Source of the DNA: Sphingobium subterraneum
GTDB taxonomy: Bacteria > Pseudomonadota > Alphaproteobacteria > Sphingomonadales > Sphingomonadaceae
Assembly (NCBI RefSeq): GCF_014199435.1
Contig: NZ_JACIJP010000002.1
Coordinates: 598,001-662,000 of the forward strand
DNA: 64,000 bases
Direction: 5' to 3'
Shown: positions 12,482-50,940 of the stretch, piece by piece
Layout of the letters: each line of letters begins with the position of its first letter
Position numbering within the stretch: the first letter of the stretch is position 1
The notes under the pieces: generated by a model
Told to the model about the DNA's origin: nothing
The model's database searches: none
Seen by the model: the letters and a program-made list of their open reading frames with translations, nothing else
Position numbers and translations under genes: made by a program

Positions 12482-15421
12482 ATGACCGACACGCCCGAAG
12501 CGCCTCGCCAAGAGGCACAAGATTACAAGTCCACCGTGTTCCTGCCCGCCACCGACTTCCCGATGAAGGCCGGTCTGGCGCAGAAGGAACCGACGATTGC
12601 GGCGCAGTGGGCGGCGGACGGCCTCTACGGCAAGTTGCGTGAACGCCGCGCGGGCCGCGAACGCTTCATTCTGCACGATGGCCCGCCTTATGCGAATGGC
12701 GACATTCACATGGGCCATGCCATGAACAAGGTGCTGAAGGACATCATCGTCCGCTCGCAGACCTTGCTCGGCAAGGATGCGCCCTATGTGCCCGGCTGGG
12801 ACTGCCACGGCCTCCCGATCGAATGGAAGATCGAGGAGGAATATCGCAAGAAGAAGCTCAACAAGGACGAGGTTCCACCCCAGGAATTCCGCGCCCAGTG
12901 CCGCGCCTATGCCGACAAGTGGGTCGGCGTGCAGAAGGAACAGTTCCAGCGGCTGGGTATCCTCGGTGACTGGGACGATCCCTATCTGACCATGAAGTAT
13001 GAGGCGGAAGCCGCGATCGTCGGCGAACTGCTGAAATTCGCAGAGAGCGGCCAGCTTTATCGCGGCGCGAAGCCGGTGATGTGGTCCCCGGTCGAAAAGA
13101 CCGCTCTTGCGGAGGCCGAGGTAGAATATGAGGACGTCACCTCGACCCAGATCGACGTGGCGTTCGAGATCACCGAAGCGCCGAACGCGCCGGAGCTGGT
13201 CGGTGCCTATGCCGTCATCTGGACGACGACCCCGTGGACGATCCCGACCAACCAGGGCATCGCTTATGGGGAGGGGATTGAGTATTCTCTTCTACCGCTC
13301 GACGACAGAAGATACTTGGTCAACACCACCAATGTCGGGGATTTCTTGCACCGTCTAGCGGCGGGCGATCATCAAGAATTGATCCGTTTGTCTAGTCAGA
13401 CACTAGATCCGAGCGGACAATTTAATTGCGTCTTTGGTAAGGGGAAGAGGCTCGCCGGAGCCACCGCCCGCCATCCGATGCACCATCTCGGGGGCTTCTT
13501 CGCCAAGCCCCGCCCGTTCCTCGCCGCGCCGCATGTCACCACCGACGCGGGTACCGGCCTCGTCCATATGGCGCCCGACCATGGCGAGGAGGATTTCCTC
13601 GCCTGCAAGCCGCTCGGCATTGATCCGGTGTTTGCGGTGCAGGGCGATGGCATGTACCGCGCCGACTGGGCGTGGCTCGGCGGGCAGGGCAGCGTTATCA
13701 ACACCAAGTTCAATGGCCCGGATGGTCCGATCTGCACGGATCTGCGCGGAGCGGGCGCGCTGCTCTCCGCCGCGCCGTTCCAGCACAGCTATCCGCACTC
13801 GTGGCGATCGAAAGCGCGGATCATCTACCGCTGCACGCCGCAGTGGTTTATCCCCATGGACAAGCCAACGTCTATCTCCGTTCCGGCTGAGCCTGTCGAA
13901 GCCCCGTCCTTCTCGTCGGAAGGAAATGCGGCCCTTCGACAAGCTCAGGGCGAACGGATGTTGAGCAACGCACCCACCCTGCGCGAAACAGCGCTTGACG
14001 CTATCGCCCACACCCGCTGGGTGCCGGAGCGATCGACCAACCGTATCCGCTCGATGGTCGAGGGCCGTCCGGACTGGGTGATCTCGCGCCAGCGCGCATG
14101 GGGGGTGCCGATCGCGCTTTATGTCCACCGCCAGTCGGGCGAATATTTGAACAACCCGGCCGTCAACGCGCGCATCGTCGAAGCGTTCAAGGCGGGCGGG
14201 GCGGACGCATGGTTCGGCGCGGACCATCAGGCGCTGCTCGGCCCGGATTACGCGCTCGCCGATTATGAGGTGGTAAACGACATCCTCGACGTGTGGTTCG
14301 ACAGCGGATCAACCCACAGCTTCGTGGTCGAGGCACGCTATGGGGAAGGCGTGCGCGCCGACCTCTATCTCGAAGGCAGCGACCAGCATCGCGGCTGGTT
14401 CCAGTCGAGCCTGCTCGAAAGCTGCGGCACGCGGGGGCGCGCTCCCTATGAGGCGGTGCTGACCCACGGCTTTGCGCTCGACCAGTCGGGCCGCAAGATG
14501 TCGAAGTCGCTCGGCAATGTCGTTGACCCGCTGAAAATCATGAGCGAGAGCGGCGCGGACATCCTGCGCATGTGGGTCGCCAGCACCGATTATTTCGACG
14601 ATGTGAAGGTCGGCAAGGAAGTACTCGCGGGCGCGTCCGACGCCTATCGCAAGCTGCGCAACACGTTCCGTTACCTGCTCGGTGCGCTCGCCGATTTCCG
14701 CGAGGATGAGAAGGTCGCGGTTTCCGACATGCCGGAGCTGGAGCGCTATATGCTGCACCGGCTGGCGGAACTGGACGCGGAGCTGAAGGGCGTGGTCGAT
14801 CGTGCCGCAGGCAGCGAGAGCTGGCTGGAATTCGGCCGCTACACCCGCGCGTTGAACGATTTCGCGAACAGCGATCTGTCGGCCTTCTTCTTCGATATCC
14901 GCAAGGACTGTCTCTACTGCGACGTCAACCCGGCCACCGGCGCGCAGACCGACAAGCGCCGCGCGTACCGCACCGTGCTCGACACGCTGTTCCACGCCCT
15001 CGTCCGCTACGCCGCGCCGATTATCCCCTTCACGGCGGAGGAAGTGTGGAAGAGCCGTTTCCCGGGCGCCGACAGCGTGCATTTGCTGGAATGGCCGGAG
15101 GTTGATGCGGGTTGGAAGAATGAAACACTTGGAGACAAGTGGGCGCGTATCCGTAACACGCGTGCACTCGCCACGGAAAGAATTGAACCGTTGCGACGTG
15201 AAAAGGTTGTCGGTTCAAGTCTCGAGGCCGAAGTCTATGCTCCTGTCGAGCTAGGCGATGTTGACTGGAGTGAACTCTTCATCTCGGCAACGGTGCATAA
15301 AGGAGAGTGGAAGGTCGAAAAAACCACCCACCACAAATGCGGCCGCTGCTGGCGGCACCTTCCCGAAGTCACACAGGACGGCGACCTGTGCGACCGTTGT
15401 GAAACGGTGCTGGCGCAATGA
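12482..15421 (+). CDS. ileS: isoleucyl-tRNA synthetase with an in-frame repeat insertion
   Basis: A 979-residue class I synthetase charging tRNA-Ile. The HIGH-type motif is in GDIHMGHA (about residue 75), KMSKS in GRKMSKSLGN (about 671), and a C-terminal zinc site in CGRCWRHLPEV...CDRCETVL. ATG 12482 gives the natural N-terminus. Three oddities are visible. An 80-base palindromic repeat (13878-13957) is translated in frame between FIPMDKP and TLRETALDAIA. Bases about 13275-13440 (editing-domain region) and about 15100-15335 (C-terminal part) use AGA, TTG, CTA, TCT and AGT codons that are rare in the rest of the gene. The reading frame stays open throughout, so the gene should be functional. 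Confidence 0.96.
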   Translation: MTDTPEAPRQEAQDYKSTVFLPATDFPMKAGLAQKEPTIAAQWAADGLYGKLRERRAGRERFILHDGPPYANGDIHMGHAMNKVLKDIIVRSQTLLGKDAPYVPGWDCHGLPIEWKIEEEYRKKKLNKDEVPPQEFRAQCRAYADKWVGVQKEQFQRLGILGDWDDPYLTMKYEAEAAIVGELLKFAESGQLYRGAKPVMWSPVEKTALAEAEVEYEDVTSTQIDVAFEITEAPNAPELVGAYAVIWTTTPWTIPTNQGIAYGEGIEYSLLPLDDRRYLVNTTNVGDFLHRLAAGDHQELIRLSSQTLDPSGQFNCVFGKGKRLAGATARHPMHHLGGFFAKPRPFLAAPHVTTDAGTGLVHMAPDHGEEDFLACKPLGIDPVFAVQGDGMYRADWAWLGGQGSVINTKFNGPDGPICTDLRGAGALLSAAPFQHSYPHSWRSKARIIYRCTPQWFIPMDKPTSISVPAEPVEAPSFSSEGNAALRQAQGERMLSNAPTLRETALDAIAHTRWVPERSTNRIRSMVEGRPDWVISRQRAWGVPIALYVHRQSGEYLNNPAVNARIVEAFKAGGADAWFGADHQALLGPDYALADYEVVNDILDVWFDSGSTHSFVVEARYGEGVRADLYLEGSDQHRGWFQSSLLESCGTRGRAPYEAVLTHGFALDQSGRKMSKSLGNVVDPLKIMSESGADILRMWVASTDYFDDVKVGKEVLAGASDAYRKLRNTFRYLLGALADFREDEKVAVSDMPELERYMLHRLAELDAELKGVVDRAAGSESWLEFGRYTRALNDFANSDLSAFFFDIRKDCLYCDVNPATGAQTDKRRAYRTVLDTLFHALVRYAAPIIPFTAEEVWKSRFPGADSVHLLEWPEVDAGWKNETLGDKWARIRNTRALATERIEPLRREKVVGSSLEAEVYAPVELGDVDWSELFISATVHKGEWKVEKTTHHKCGRCWRHLPEVTQDGDLCDRCETVLAQ
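13878..13957. repeat. palindromic CCGTTCG-type repeat inserted in frame in ileS
   Basis: The left arm CCGTTCCGGCTGAGCCTGTC continues to GAAGCCCCG; the right arm is its imperfect reverse complement, ending CAGGGCGAACGG. The ends match the elements at 16411 and 50966. Translated in the ileS frame it gives a stop-free Ala/Glu/Pro/Ser/Gln-rich segment (includes AEPVEAPSFSSEGNAALRQ). The length keeps the frame of the flanking IleS motifs. It resembles, in behaviour, the protein-coding palindromic elements known from Rickettsia (RPE). Confidence 0.8.
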
Positions 15422-15474: not shown

Positions 15475-15993
15475 ATGCCGCGCACCCGCCATCGCCCGCT
15501 TGGGCTGTTCACCGCGCTGGTCGTGCTGGGGCTCGATCAGATCATCAAATATATCGTCACCTATCCGCTGTCGCTGCAATCGCGCGGGGATGAAGGGCTA
15601 GTCCTGCTGCCGATCTTCAAGCTGAGCTGGCTCGAAAATCGCGGCGTGTCGATGGGGTTCTTCCACGCGAACACGGAAACCGCCCGCTGGCTGCTGGTGG
15701 CGATGACGAGCGCCATCGCGCTGTTCGTGGCTGTCTGGATGTGGCGTGAGAAGGCGCGGCAGGATGTGCTGGCATTGGGGCTGGTGCTCGGCGGGGCGAT
15801 CGGCAATATCGTCGATCGGATCCGGCTGGGCTTCGTCATCGATTATGCCGATCTGCACTTCGGCGAATGGCGCCCGTTCCTCGTTTTCAACCTGGCGGAC
15901 GCCGCAATTACCATCGGAGTGCTGATCCTGCTTGCGCGGGCGGTGCTGCTGGGCGAAAAGAGCCCAAAGACGGAGAGTCACGAAAATGCGTAA
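15475..15993 (+). CDS. lspA: lipoprotein signal peptidase (signal peptidase II)
   Basis: About 172 residues with four membrane helices; it cleaves prolipoprotein signal peptides at the lipid-modified cysteine. Both catalytic aspartate blocks are visible: GGAIGNIVDRI and VFNLADAAI, with ENRGVSMGFF in the first periplasmic loop. An ATG nine bases upstream (15466) abuts the AAGGG; the ATG at 15475 has better spacing. Its stop overlaps the bamF start by 8 bases. The neighbouring product is itself a lipoprotein and so a substrate. Confidence 0.95.
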   Translation: MPRTRHRPLGLFTALVVLGLDQIIKYIVTYPLSLQSRGDEGLVLLPIFKLSWLENRGVSMGFFHANTETARWLLVAMTSAIALFVAVWMWREKARQDVLALGLVLGGAIGNIVDRIRLGFVIDYADLHFGEWRPFLVFNLADAAITIGVLILLARAVLLGEKSPKTESHENA

Positions 15994-16399
15994 AGTTTCT
16001 GTTGCCGCCAGCCTCGGCCTTATGGTGACCTTGTCCGCTTGCGGGTCGAGCGGCCTGTTCAACCGCAGCCGACCGGATGAGTTTGCGGTCTCGCGGCAGG
16101 CTCCGCTCGTGATCCCGCCCGATTTCGCGCTGATTCCGCCGGTTCCGGGCGCCGCGCCGACCGCCACGGCGGAAAGCAGCCGTCAGGCGATGGAGGCGAT
16201 GTTCGGCGGCCCCGCGCAGCGCAGCGCGAGCGAAAGCGCCGCTCTGGGTACGGCTGGCCGCGACGCCGCCGCCCCGGGCATCCGCTCTTCGGTGGGCGAT
16301 CCCAACACCAATGTCGTCGAAAAGGGCGCTACTACGCGCGACATCATCGCCGCACCGGAAGGCGATGGCCAGTTCGCACGGGCTGCGGCTGGGAAGTAA
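15986..16399 (+). CDS. bamF: DUF3035 / BamF-like outer-membrane lipoprotein
   Basis: A 137-residue lipoprotein with lipobox LSAC after a short signal peptide. The region RPDEFAVSRQAPLVIPPDFAL is the DUF3035 signature, known in Caulobacter as BamF, an accessory subunit of the outer-membrane barrel assembly complex. The rest is low in complexity and probably disordered. Translationally coupled to lspA by an 8-base overlap. Confidence 0.8.
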   Translation: MRKVSVAASLGLMVTLSACGSSGLFNRSRPDEFAVSRQAPLVIPPDFALIPPVPGAAPTATAESSRQAMEAMFGGPAQRSASESAALGTAGRDAAAPGIRSSVGDPNTNVVEKGATTRDIIAAPEGDGQFARAAAGK

Positions 16400-16410
16400 G
16401 CTGCGTTACA

Positions 16411-16502
16411 CCGTTCGCCCTGAGCGGCTGGCGTAGCCAGCCAGTCGCAGGGTCGTCCTTTTTTCTGAAAGGACAGGACTCCAACAGGCTCAGCCCGAAC
16501 GG
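16411..16502. repeat. compound palindromic repeat (CCGTTCG ends) between bamF and ung
   Basis: Outer arms CCGTTCGCCCTGAGC and GCTCAGCCCGAACGG enclose two further hairpins: a perfect GGCTGGC-GTA-GCCAGCC (16426-16442) and a GTCCTTT/AAAGGAC pair. It sits between the convergent bamF and ung genes, where it could end transcription on both sides. Same family as the copies at 13878 and 50966, but with a different core. Confidence 0.8.
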
Positions 16503-16517
16503 ATGCAGGCTGGAGCG

Positions 16518-17234
16518 CTACGCAGTGTCCGGCAGCGACCAGTCGATTTCCGGTTCTCCTTGCTCGCGCAGGAAGGCGTTGGCGCGGCTGAACGGGCGGC
16601 TGCCGAAAAATCCGTTGTGCGCCGATAACGGCGAGGGATGTACGGATTTGATGACCAAGTGCCGCCCACCCTGTTCGACGCTTTTGACGAACGCGGCCTT
16701 GCGCTGCGCATAGGCGCCCCACAGGATGAAGACGATCGGCCGGTCTTCTCTGGCAACCAGCTGGATGACGGCGTCGGTAAACTGCTCCCACCCTTTTCCC
16801 TGATGCGACGCGGCATTGCCCATCGCGACCGTCAGCACGCTGTTGAGCAGCAGCACGCCCTGTTCCGCCCAATGGGTCAGGTTGCCATGGCCCGGGCGGG
16901 GGATACCGAGGTCAGCCTCCAGTTCCTTGAAGATGTTGAGCAGCGAGGGTGGCGGCCGTACCCCGCGCGGCACCGAAAAGCTCAATCCATGCGCCTGCCC
17001 CTCGCCATGATAGGGGTCCTGCCCCAGAATGACGACGCGAACGCGGTCGAGCGGCGTGATATCGAGCGCGCGGAAATATTCGCTGCCCTTGGGAAAGATG
17101 CGCTTGCCCGCCGCCTTCTCGCTCAGCAGGAACTGCTTGAGCGCGGCCATGCGCGGGCTGGTGAGCGTCTCGGCAAGCGGTTCGCGCCAGCTGGCGTCGA
17201 GCTTGACGGGGGAGGGGGTTGCGGTGTCGGCCAT
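16518..17234 (-). CDS. ung: uracil-DNA glycosylase
   Basis: A 238-residue family 1 UDG removing uracil from DNA. It carries the water-activating loop VVILGQDPYHGEGQAHGLSF (about residues 67-86), LLLNSVLTV, and the DNA-intercalation loop HPSPLSAHNGFFGSRPFS. Length and motifs are standard. Divergent from the GNAT gene with 83 bases between the starts. Convergent with bamF across the palindromic repeat. Confidence 0.96.
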   Translation of the reverse strand: MADTATPSPVKLDASWREPLAETLTSPRMAALKQFLLSEKAAGKRIFPKGSEYFRALDITPLDRVRVVILGQDPYHGEGQAHGLSFSVPRGVRPPPSLLNIFKELEADLGIPRPGHGNLTHWAEQGVLLLNSVLTVAMGNAASHQGKGWEQFTDAVIQLVAREDRPIVFILWGAYAQRKAAFVKSVEQGGRHLVIKSVHPSPLSAHNGFFGSRPFSRANAFLREQGEPEIDWSLPDTA

Positions 17235-47406: not shown

Positions 47407-50400
47407 ATGGAGATCCGGCGGCTCAAGCTTTCGGGATTCAAAAGCTTCGTCGATGCGACCGAGCTGCGGATCGAGGCTGGCCTGACCGGCGTCGTCGGCC
47501 CCAATGGCTGCGGCAAGTCGAATCTTCTCGAAGCGATCCGCTGGGTCATGGGAGAGGCAAGCGCCCGTTCCATGCGTGGCGGCGGCATGGAAGACGTGAT
47601 CTTCGCGGGCACCGCCACCCGCCCGCGCCGCGACTTCGCAGAGGTTACCCTGCACGCCAGCGTCGCGCCCGGTGAGAGCATCCCTGCCATTGAGGTAGGC
47701 AGCGACGGAGAGCTGGAAATCGTCCGGCGGATCGAACGCGGCGCGGGCAGCGCCTATCGCGCCAACGGGCGCGACGTGCGCGCGAAGGATGTCGCCCTGA
47801 CCTTCGCCGACGCCGCGACCGGCGCGCACAGCCCCGCGCTGGTGAGCCAGGGCAAGATCGCCGCCGTCATCGCCGCACGGCCGCAGGAACGCCGCGCGAT
47901 GCTCGAGGAAGCCGCCGGGATCGCCGGGCTGCATGTCCGCCGCAAGGACGCCGAGCAGAAACTGCGCGCCGCCGAGGCCAATCTCGCGCGGCTCGACGAA
48001 ATTCTCGCCGATATGGACAACCGCGCGGCATCCTTGCGGCGGCAGGCGAAAGCGGCGGAGCGCTACACCCGCCTGTCGGAAGCGATCCGCCTGGCCGAGG
48101 CGCGCGCGCTCTGGTCGCGCTGGCGCGAAGCGGCGACCGCAGCCGAGGCTGCCGTGGTCGAGGCGCGCCTCGCCGAGGAGGCCGTAAGCAAGGCGCAGGA
48201 GGCGCAGCTTGCCGCCGCTGCCTATGCGCGCACCGCGACGGATTCATTGGCCGAGGTGCGCGCCGCCGCCCAGCGTGCACGGGAGGGCGCGAACGAGGCC
48301 GGGCACCGGCTCGCTGCTCTGGAAGCGCAGCGGCAGGAGGCGGTTCGCCGCCTTGCCGACATCGACGCGCAGATGCTCCGGCTCGCCGAGGACCGGGAGC
48401 GGGAAGGCGCGCTCGCCAATGATGCCGCCGACGCCATCGCGCGGCTGACGGAGGAAATTGCGACGCTGAAAGACCGCGTCCGATCCGCCGAAGCTCTCGC
48501 GCCCGAGCGCGCGACGCGCATTTCCGCCGCACAAGAGGATGCCCGCGACACGGAACTGGACCTCGCCCGCGCGATGGCGCGACAGGCGGGCGAGCAGGCG
48601 GAGCTGCGCGTGGCGCAGGCGGCGCTCACCGCCGCGCAATCCCGGCTCGAACGGGCGCAACGGGATGTGACCCGGCTGGAGGCGGAGGCGACAAGCCTGC
48701 CCAACCCGGCACCGCTCGAAACGCAGCGGGAAGAGGGGCTCGCTTCCGCCGCGCAGGCCGAAGCCGAGCGCGAAGATGCCGAAAAAGCCCTGGCCGAAGC
48801 CGAGGCGATCCGCGCGCAGGCGACCGAGGCGCGATCGCACGCTGAATCCGAGCTGTCCGCGGCAAAGGCGGCGCTGGCCGCTCTGGATGCGGAGGCCAGC
48901 GCCCTTACCCGCGCGCTCGACCAGAAAGCGGGCGGGGCACGCCTGCTCGACACGATCAAGGCCGCGCCGGGCTATGAGCATGCGCTCGCCGCCGCGCTGG
49001 GCGATGATCTGGAGGCCGGACTGGACAGCGCCGCCGCGCGCCATTGGGCGGGGGCGGAGGCGCTTCCTGGTGATCCGGCTTTGCCCGACGGCGCGACGGC
49101 CTTAACCGATCATGTCACCGCACCCGCCGCGCTTGCCCGCCGCTTGGCGCAGGTTGCCGTGGTGGAGCGGGATGACGGGTCACTGCTTGCCGTGGGTCAG
49201 CGCCTCGTCACGCGCGATGGGCAGATGCGCCGGTGGGACGGCTATGTCGCGCGCGAAGGGGGAGCCGCCGCCGCGCAGCGTCTGATCCGGCAGAACCGCC
49301 TCGACGCAATCGCCGCGCAACGGCCTGAGGCTGCCGGAGCCGTGGAGGCCGCGCAGGACACATTGGCGCGCGTCACCGCTGCCGCCGCCGAAGCCAGCGC
49401 GGCCATCACCCAGCACCGCGCCACGCTCGCGCAGGCGGAACGCACCATCGCGGACGCCACGCGCCGGGCAGGCGACGCCGCCGCGCAGATCGAGCGCATT
49501 GCCGCCCGGCGGGAGGACAGCGCCGCCCGCCTCGCCCATGCGCGGGAAGATTTCGCCGCCAGTCTGGCCGAGCATGAAGCTGCGCAGCAAGCGCGCGCCA
49601 ACATGCCCGACGGCACCGAGACCGCCGCGCTCGTCGCGACCCTCTCCGCCACCAGCGAAAAGGCGCATCAGGCGGTCAGCCAGTTGCAGGCCGACGCCGT
49701 GCTGGCCGAGCGTGCGCTGGCAAGCGACCGCGACCGCATCACCGCCGCCGAAGGCGAGATCAAGAGCTGGCGCGCCCGATCCGGCGAAGCCGTGCGACGC
49801 GTCGCGGACATGGCGGCGCGGCATGAGGCTATGCTGGTGGAGCAGCAGACGCTGCGGGATCGCCCCGCCGCGCTCGACGAGGACATCGCCGGGCTGCGCG
49901 AAGAAAGCGCCACCCTTGCCGCCGCTGCGCAGGCCGCGCAGGAAGAGGAGCGCGCCGCGGAAGGCGCGCTGCGTCAGGCGGAGGAGCGCCATCACCAGAC
50001 CGGGGAGGCGCTCTCGCTCGCCCGCGAGGCGCGCGCCGGGGCCGCCGCCCGCGCCGAAAGCGCGCAGGCGCGCCGGGTCGAACTGGCGCAATCGTCGGGC
50101 GAGCGTTTCGAATGTCCGCCCGCCGTGCTGCCCGAGCGGCTGGGCTTTGCCAGCGCGGACGTCGGCAGCGCGCAGACCGAGCAGGCGGAGCTCGACCGGC
50201 TGACCGCCGAGCGCGAACGGATCGGCCCGGTCAACCTCGTCGCCGCGAGCGAACTCGCCGAGCTGGAAGGGCTGCAGGAAACCAGCCGCGCAGAAAGCGC
50301 CGAACTCACTCAGGCGATCCACCAGTTGCGCGGATCGATAGGCAGTTTGAACCGCGAGGGGCGCGCGCGGCTGCTTGCCGCGTTCGAGGCCGTCGACGGG

Positions 50401-50847
50401 CATTTCCGCCGCCTGTTCACCGCACTGTTCAACGGCGGGCAGGCGCGGCTGGAACTGATCGAGAGCGACGATCCGCTGGAGGCGGGCCTTGAGATCCTCG
50501 CCCAGCCGCCGGGCAAGAAGCTCTCGACCCTCACCCTGCTGTCCGGCGGAGAACAGGCGCTGACCGCGGTCGCGCTGATCTTCGGCCTGTTCCTCACCAA
50601 CCCCGCGCCGATCTGCGTGCTGGACGAAGTTGACGCGCCGCTCGACGACGCCAATGTCGAGCGCTTCTGCGACCTCCTCGACCAGATGGTCCGCGACACC
50701 CGCACCCGCTACCTCATCGTCACCCACAACGCCGTCACCATGGCGCGCATGCACCGCCTGTTCGGCGTGACGATGGTGGAACAGGGCGTGAGCCGGCTGG
50801 TATCGGTGGACCTCGGCGCGGCGGAGGAACTGCTGGCGGCGGAGTGA
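47407..50847 (+). CDS. smc: chromosome segregation protein SMC
   Basis: A 1146-residue ATPase of chromosome condensation. Walker A GPNGCGKS is at residues 31-38, two long Ala/Glu/Arg-rich coiled coils flank a hinge at about 515-620, and the C-terminal head carries LSGGEQALTAVALIFGLFL (signature) and ICVLDEVDAPLDDAN (Walker B, D-loop). Length fits the family. No scpA/scpB is nearby. The block dciA / DsbA-like / smc is a recurrent alphaproteobacterial arrangement. Two palindromic repeats follow the stop within 12 bases and may end transcription. Confidence 0.96.
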   Translation: MEIRRLKLSGFKSFVDATELRIEAGLTGVVGPNGCGKSNLLEAIRWVMGEASARSMRGGGMEDVIFAGTATRPRRDFAEVTLHASVAPGESIPAIEVGSDGELEIVRRIERGAGSAYRANGRDVRAKDVALTFADAATGAHSPALVSQGKIAAVIAARPQERRAMLEEAAGIAGLHVRRKDAEQKLRAAEANLARLDEILADMDNRAASLRRQAKAAERYTRLSEAIRLAEARALWSRWREAATAAEAAVVEARLAEEAVSKAQEAQLAAAAYARTATDSLAEVRAAAQRAREGANEAGHRLAALEAQRQEAVRRLADIDAQMLRLAEDREREGALANDAADAIARLTEEIATLKDRVRSAEALAPERATRISAAQEDARDTELDLARAMARQAGEQAELRVAQAALTAAQSRLERAQRDVTRLEAEATSLPNPAPLETQREEGLASAAQAEAEREDAEKALAEAEAIRAQATEARSHAESELSAAKAALAALDAEASALTRALDQKAGGARLLDTIKAAPGYEHALAAALGDDLEAGLDSAAARHWAGAEALPGDPALPDGATALTDHVTAPAALARRLAQVAVVERDDGSLLAVGQRLVTRDGQMRRWDGYVAREGGAAAAQRLIRQNRLDAIAAQRPEAAGAVEAAQDTLARVTAAAAEASAAITQHRATLAQAERTIADATRRAGDAAAQIERIAARREDSAARLAHAREDFAASLAEHEAAQQARANMPDGTETAALVATLSATSEKAHQAVSQLQADAVLAERALASDRDRITAAEGEIKSWRARSGEAVRRVADMAARHEAMLVEQQTLRDRPAALDEDIAGLREESATLAAAAQAAQEEERAAEGALRQAEERHHQTGEALSLAREARAGAAARAESAQARRVELAQSSGERFECPPAVLPERLGFASADVGSAQTEQAELDRLTAERERIGPVNLVAASELAELEGLQETSRAESAELTQAIHQLRGSIGSLNREGRARLLAAFEAVDGHFRRLFTALFNGGQARLELIESDDPLEAGLEILAQPPGKKLSTLTLLSGGEQALTAVALIFGLFLTNPAPICVLDEVDAPLDDANVERFCDLLDQMVRDTRTRYLIVTHNAVTMARMHRLFGVTMVEQGVSRLVSVDLGAAEELLAAE

Positions 50848-50858
50848 GGTCCATACTC

Positions 50859-50940
50859 CCGTCACCGCAGCGCAGGCTGGGGTCTCAGGCCCGGAAGCGC
50901 GCCATTCGGCACAAGATGGCAGCCTGCGCTGGCATGACGG
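50859..50940. repeat. palindromic CAGCGCAGGCTG repeat behind smc
   Basis: The left arm begins CCGTCACCGCAGCGCAGGCTG and the right arm is its imperfect reverse complement ending AGCGCTGGCATGACGG or close to it (CAGCCTGCGCTGGCATGACG). It differs from the CCGTTCG family and represents a second palindromic repeat type. It starts 12 bases behind the smc stop, where it can fold into a long hairpin. Confidence 0.75.

Follow-up and report, generated by a model that had tools for sequence, protein, structure and literature searches.

Palindromic repeats of several families lie in frame in the same loops of isoleucyl-tRNA synthetase and other conserved proteins of sphingomonads

The gene encoding isoleucyl-tRNA synthetase (ileS) of Sphingobium subterraneum, located in a window of 64,000 nucleotides (the whole stretch of DNA that was analyzed), carries an 80-base palindromic element that starts with CCGTTCC and finishes with CGAACGG (Table 1). 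The reading frame of this essential gene runs through the element without a stop codon, and the flanking protein is normal, with a score against TIGR00392 above the cut-off of 621 bits; the open frame and the normal flanks had been made in a first-pass annotation of the same DNA and are borne out here. The element, which is presumably translated as a protein segment of approximately 27 amino acids, is bracketed by T at position 13877 and A at position 13958, as are many other copies of the same repeat (family A). Its RNA has a predicted folding energy of -44 kcal/mol, compared to a mean of -26.8 kcal/mol for shuffled sequences (z = -5.2), and none of 200 shuffles equaled this value. A search of positions 13600–14300 against Rfam yielded only two matches, whose scores (18.4 and 15.4 bits) are far below the gathering score of 97.

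Table 1. Features of the ileS locus (positions in the window)
Feature	Position	Strand	Evidence
ileS, isoleucyl-tRNA synthetase, host gene, 979 aa	12482..15421	+	TIGR00392 759 bits, PF00133 422 bits
Hypervariable loop, residues 460–499, WFIPM to LRETALDAI, recurrent repeat site	13859..13978	+	129 loops compared
Family A palindromic repeat, approximately residues 466–492	13878..13957	+	Genome copies, fold, arm matches
Left arm: CCGTTC end, GGCT..AGCC inner stem	13878..13903	+	By eye, fold, arm matches
Right arm: GCCCT..AGGGC inner stem, GAACGG end	13930..13957	+	By eye, fold, arm matches

The element in ileS is a copy of a multi-copy palindromic repeat. Family A gave at least 29 hits at no fewer than 22 distinct places in the genome of S. 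subterraneum (18 top-ranked, 2 weaker full-length, and 2 partial places), which is a lower bound based on 40 scored candidates out of 52 and agrees with the mobile appearance noted in the first-pass annotation. A 23-base pattern derived from the arms matched 41 times in the same genome, and the reversed control pattern did not match at all. Across the genus, matches to family A are present in at least 90 of 94 genomes and those to a second family (family B) in at least 76 of 94, with at most 9 candidates scored per genome.

The genome-wide search for the element in other genes, which had been proposed in the same annotation, located copies of family A in frame within three recognizable proteins of S. 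subterraneum, encoded by ileS, sufC, and a nuoF-like gene. Long reading frames over seven other copies were rejected as genes and are taken as shadow frames over intergenic copies because they matched no Pfam family at an E value of 0.001; the ten full copies that remain appear, from the layout of open reading frames alone, to be intergenic. The idea that the repeat is built to be translated was dropped, since its open frames (2.9 of 6) scarcely exceed those of shuffled sequences (2.4 of 6). Family A has two properties of a protein-coding palindromic element of the kind known from Rickettsia: it is a multi-copy palindromic repeat, and in ileS and sufC it lies in frame and free of stop codons in a conserved gene but is missing from some orthologs. 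Elsewhere in the window, a degenerate remnant resembling family A (right half by search, left half by eye) is located around positions 16412–16505, between an open reading frame at 15932–16399 and one on the minus strand at 16518–17234, and a repeat of family B (CGTC-type) at 50860–50939 directly follows an open reading frame of 1146 amino acids (47407–50847).

In an AlphaFold model of IleS computed with 40 aligned sequences (mean pLDDT 87.8), residues 471–495 form the sole run of at least three residues with a pLDDT below 50, apart from residues 1–5; nearly all of this run belongs to the insert, although the low values partly reflect that the loop cannot be aligned. The extra residues expected in the first-pass annotation have no counterpart in three solved structures: in the IleRS chains 8c9e, 8c9f, and 1ffy, which were among the matches listed, the flanks meet at chain residues 414–418, and no segment corresponds to the insert. 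The gene contains two further unusual regions. A hypervariable, AT-rich stretch in the editing domain (approximately 13270–13455) has a GC3 of 0.56, compared to 0.79 for the rest of the gene, and the GC3 of this stretch is more than 0.1 below the rest in 89 of 98 measurable ileS genes; it could represent a tract of rare codons that has been conserved or a further site prone to insertions. Close to the end of the gene lies another AT-rich stretch (approximately 15110–15310; GC3 about 0.5), which does not show in the mean over the measured ileS genes (0.81).

The loop was read between the motifs WFIPM and LRxxAL in 93 of the 94 genomes of the genus (the remaining one has no full ileS) and in 36 named loci considered to belong to Sphingomonadales. 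These 36 were drawn from 80 named ileS loci, of which 42 were omitted as non-sphingomonads by title and two (L110 and L125) escaped the pattern. The resulting 129 sequences include one that is titled only Alphaproteobacteria and two pairs that are counted twice (one with the same protein, one with the same loop). Loop length ranges from 4 to 71 amino acids, and a repeat was recognized in 33 of the 129 loops (20 of the 93 genus genomes and 13 of the 36 named loci), using short patterns that were written after inspection of the loops. No stop codon is present in any of the 129 loops or in the ileS matches listed. In other bacteria, nearly all of them Alphaproteobacteria by title, 28 of the 42 omitted loci matched the loop pattern; after removal of 6 mis-spanned loci, the loop comprises 4–13 amino acids in 19 of 22 cases and 25, 25, and 58 in the others.

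The repeats in the loop belong to several families. Family A is present in two loops (S. subterraneum and one other genus genome), family B, a dimer of CGTC-type REPs, in seven (among them that of Sphingobium lactosutens DS20, L091), family D, which shares the CCGTTCG end with family A but has a different stem, in six, and families C and E, rich in CCCTCTCC/GGGGAGGGG and treated as one loose, composition-like class, in 18. One additional loop (L221) looks D-like but was missed by the patterns, and the loop of a Boseaceae locus is also C/E-like. Within-genome repetition was checked for the genus genomes. Every genome whose IleS loop carries family A or B contains several matches to that family, and families C, D, and E are each repeated in three genomes. 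A query with family E in G074 returned only the copy in IleS; a query with family C in G083 returned two weak matches, and queries with family D returned one match in G049 and three weak ones in the D-like G037, in each case none at ileS. Seven IleS loops from records of the Novosphingobium, Sphingopyxis, and Erythrobacter type share, by eye, a W-E-x-E-G-G motif that resembles the peptide RWEGEGD/EWEGEGD of two repeat-bearing loops (L093 and L123); it is possibly an old insert that was kept at the protein level after decay of the palindrome.

When the loop states were mapped onto a tree of IleS proteins without the loop, Fitch parsimony required 25 changes (A 2, B 4, D 6, and C/E 16 for each label alone). 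With the additional D-like loop included, the count was 26, compared to 30–34 in 200 shuffles, which suggests some inheritance of the loop labels but rapid turnover; all counts derive from gene trees and include losses.

The loops of two other proteins show the same phenomenon. The match of the SufC of S. subterraneum to TIGR01978 (325 bits) is divided into two parts, and the better one begins behind the insert. A strong match to SufC was found in 91 of the 94 genus genomes, and 90 loci were compared (that of G073 was not fetched). The corresponding distance between motifs is 37 or 41 amino acids in 86 of the 90 loci; inserts are present in the other four and represent family A (S. subterraneum), the CGTC type (G068), and the C type (G077 and G061). 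The latter three are nearest neighbors on the SufC tree, with the SufC of S. subterraneum close by, so the four inserts may not represent four free insertions; G018, which has no insert, is also near the carriers. In G061 (L236), the C-type insert seems to be broken by another small palindrome, so that one repeat would sit inside the other (by eye).

The nuoF-like gene encodes a 51-kDa protein, presumably FdsB of formate dehydrogenase, whose score of 365 bits is below the NuoF cut-off of 559; another match in the same genome, 40% identical to this protein, may be NuoF itself. PF10589 matches the product in two stretches, the better of which stops at residue 497, and the insert lies around residue 501. 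Among the 30 best-scoring loci, 17 carry a repeat by peptide patterns without control windows (A 10; B 5, one of them a remnant; CGTC-type 2), a proportion that is biased upwards because the query carries the insert. In the 13 loci where none was recognized, two hold a shrunken family A repeat (L336 and L339), with full copies beside them in L328 and L329. Families A and B start and end alike (CCGT...ACGG) at a nearly identical nucleotide position. Different families also occur within the same clades: one clade combines two loci with family A, one with the CGTC type, and three with family B (support 0.989), and another combines two loci with family A and one with family B (support 0.93), its sister pair of A (L327) and B (L352) having a support of only 0.476.

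Because relatives carry quite different repeats at this position, a small number of flexible loops in proteins appear to offer palindromic selfish DNA a safe place to land. The preferred explanation, with a probability of roughly 0.85, is that the repeats move blindly, survive in tolerant turns, and then undergo turnover and decay. Family A would be a non-autonomous repeat that consists of two short, REP-like arms placed face to face, with the ends CCGTTC and GAACGG. Repeats would enter at many places, and insertions into genes would be lost except where a tolerant turn receives them in frame; the copy that landed in ileS would owe its survival to an intact frame, the absence of a stop codon, and its location in such a turn. 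Most likely, it is translated as a floppy loop without a function of its own, probably neutral and located at the protein surface. The enlarged loop would then become a safe harbor that further repeats, whether of the same family or unrelated to it, enter or replace, and in which in-frame deletions gradually shorten what is left of a repeat. A life cycle of this kind is also seen in the nuoF-like gene and, with fewer cases, in sufC.

We infer tolerance rather than targeting; targeted insertion is a less likely alternative. It posits a shared machinery that reads the CCGT/ACGG ends of families A, D, and B and prefers certain sites, for example an existing palindrome. The similar ends and almost identical position of families A and B in the nuoF-like gene would be expected from such a machinery, as would the clustering of SufC inserts in related species and the apparent palindrome inside a palindrome in the SufC of G061; moreover, all three intragenic copies of family A found in S. 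subterraneum (ileS, sufC, and the nuoF-like gene) occupy sites where different repeats are present in other species. However, the repeats of the C/E class have different ends, the family boundaries in IleS are several residues apart (by eye), and repeated sites would also result from tolerance alone. There is also no transposase candidate: a RAYT-type Y1 transposase (PF01797) was considered as the mover, but the search gave 0 matches in the genome of S. subterraneum, whereas it was positive in 5 of 14 control genomes, and the family is present in 23 of the 94 genomes. An extended version, in which a few loops of essential enzymes in sphingomonads serve as docking sites where one machinery reading CCGT/ACGG exchanges unrelated families, is speculative and rather doubtful. 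If true, these places would be a recurrent source of new protein segments.

It is very improbable that the segment is part of an ordinary length-variable loop, with the repeat being one more sequence within it. The first-pass annotation had proposed that unrelated nucleotide sequences in the relatives would identify the segment as such a loop. The relatives do carry unrelated sequences, but 32 of the 128 loops other than that of S. subterraneum match palindromic repeat patterns, so that an ordinary loop is only half the answer; the ileS loop is a tolerant loop that collects repeats. It also varies without them, as 96 of the 129 loops contain no recognized repeat and still comprise 4 to 53 amino acids. 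By contrast, the copies elsewhere in the genome contradict the ordinary-loop reading for this segment, empty sites exist in SufC, and repeats are far more common in the loop (33 of 129) than in control windows of the same length from the rest of the ileS genes (41 family hits in 4377 windows: A 0, D 1, B 10, and C/E 30), a control that bounds chance matches but not the choice of patterns. The folding energy per base is -0.555 for repeat loops of 60 or more bases, -0.402 for other loops, and -0.348 for control windows; loops without a recognized repeat therefore also fold somewhat more strongly than the controls.

Skipping of the hairpin, either by ribosome bypassing or by mRNA cleavage, would produce an enzyme without the additional residues. 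The hairpin is very stable, and bypassed palindromes are mentioned for yeast mitochondria (PMC6649704), but this explanation is scarcely credible because all 33 recognized loops are free of stop codons and maintain the frame on either side, which would be unnecessary if the repeat were bypassed. Out-of-frame loops would escape the loop pattern, but only two of the fetched sphingomonad loci were missed, and both the C/E-like repeat of L125 and the short loop of L110 are in frame. A sequencing or assembly artefact of the draft genome (34 contigs) can practically be dismissed, given that the frame is continuous and that some 30 similar in-frame cases exist in other genomes.

Coding palindromes are best known from the intracellular Rickettsia; here, they occur in a free-living, culturable group, in which different repeats have on more than one occasion come to occupy the same loops of ileS, the nuoF-like gene, and sufC. 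Empty, filled, exchanged, and shortened loops can be compared side by side and provide replicated natural experiments on the gain of protein segments. The same cases are informative about the tolerance of individual loops to random peptides and about the movement of repeats for which no transposase is known.

The repeats resemble several known systems. Like the GTAG REPs and REPINs associated with RAYT, they consist of short palindromes that face each other in pairs and are dispersed across the genome, but they have no GTAG tag, and no PF01797 gene was found in the genome of S. subterraneum. Family B fits the CGTC REPs of Alphaproteobacteria (PMC3733652), both of which include intragenic copies: the loop of L057 (by eye) shows the CGTC tag, an 8-bp stem, a 4-nt loop, a 3-nt tail, and a facing dimer, with the tail CTC instead of the common CCA. 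Family A does not fit the CGTC REPs (CGTC tag, stem of 8–9 bp, loop of 4–5 nt); it has CCGTTC ends, inner stems of 4 and 5 bp, and loops of approximately 11 nt (by eye).

Intragenic REPs have been reported for several species, including REPs in tRNA synthetases of Xanthomonas oryzae, Erythrobacter lithoralis, and Sphingopyxis alaskensis (PMC3733652). Since the latter two belong to Sphingomonadales, the assumption of the first-pass annotation that such insertions had not been described in sphingomonads is contradicted by that study, published in 2013. The sections of it covered here neither state which synthetase is affected nor name a shared ileS loop. The nearest printed hint of a common intragenic site is recB of Xanthomonas, where different REPs lie near the same site in two species (PMC3733652); the section on this case concerns two species and one gene, without counts, empty sites, or trees. 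The literature matches listed, which exclude supplements and most subscription papers, contain no report of the ileS loop as a repeat site, and the recurrent occupation of the same loops by repeat families that are unrelated to each other looks new.

The closest parallel in kind is the palindromic elements of Rickettsia (RPE), which lie in frame in conserved genes, are translated, and are thought to be neutral (PMC2229807, PMC10969869). The likeness drawn here is one of description, namely in-frame palindromes in conserved genes. In contrast to RPE, the repeats described here occur in free-living sphingomonads, have other lengths, and include several unrelated families that have the same loops in common.
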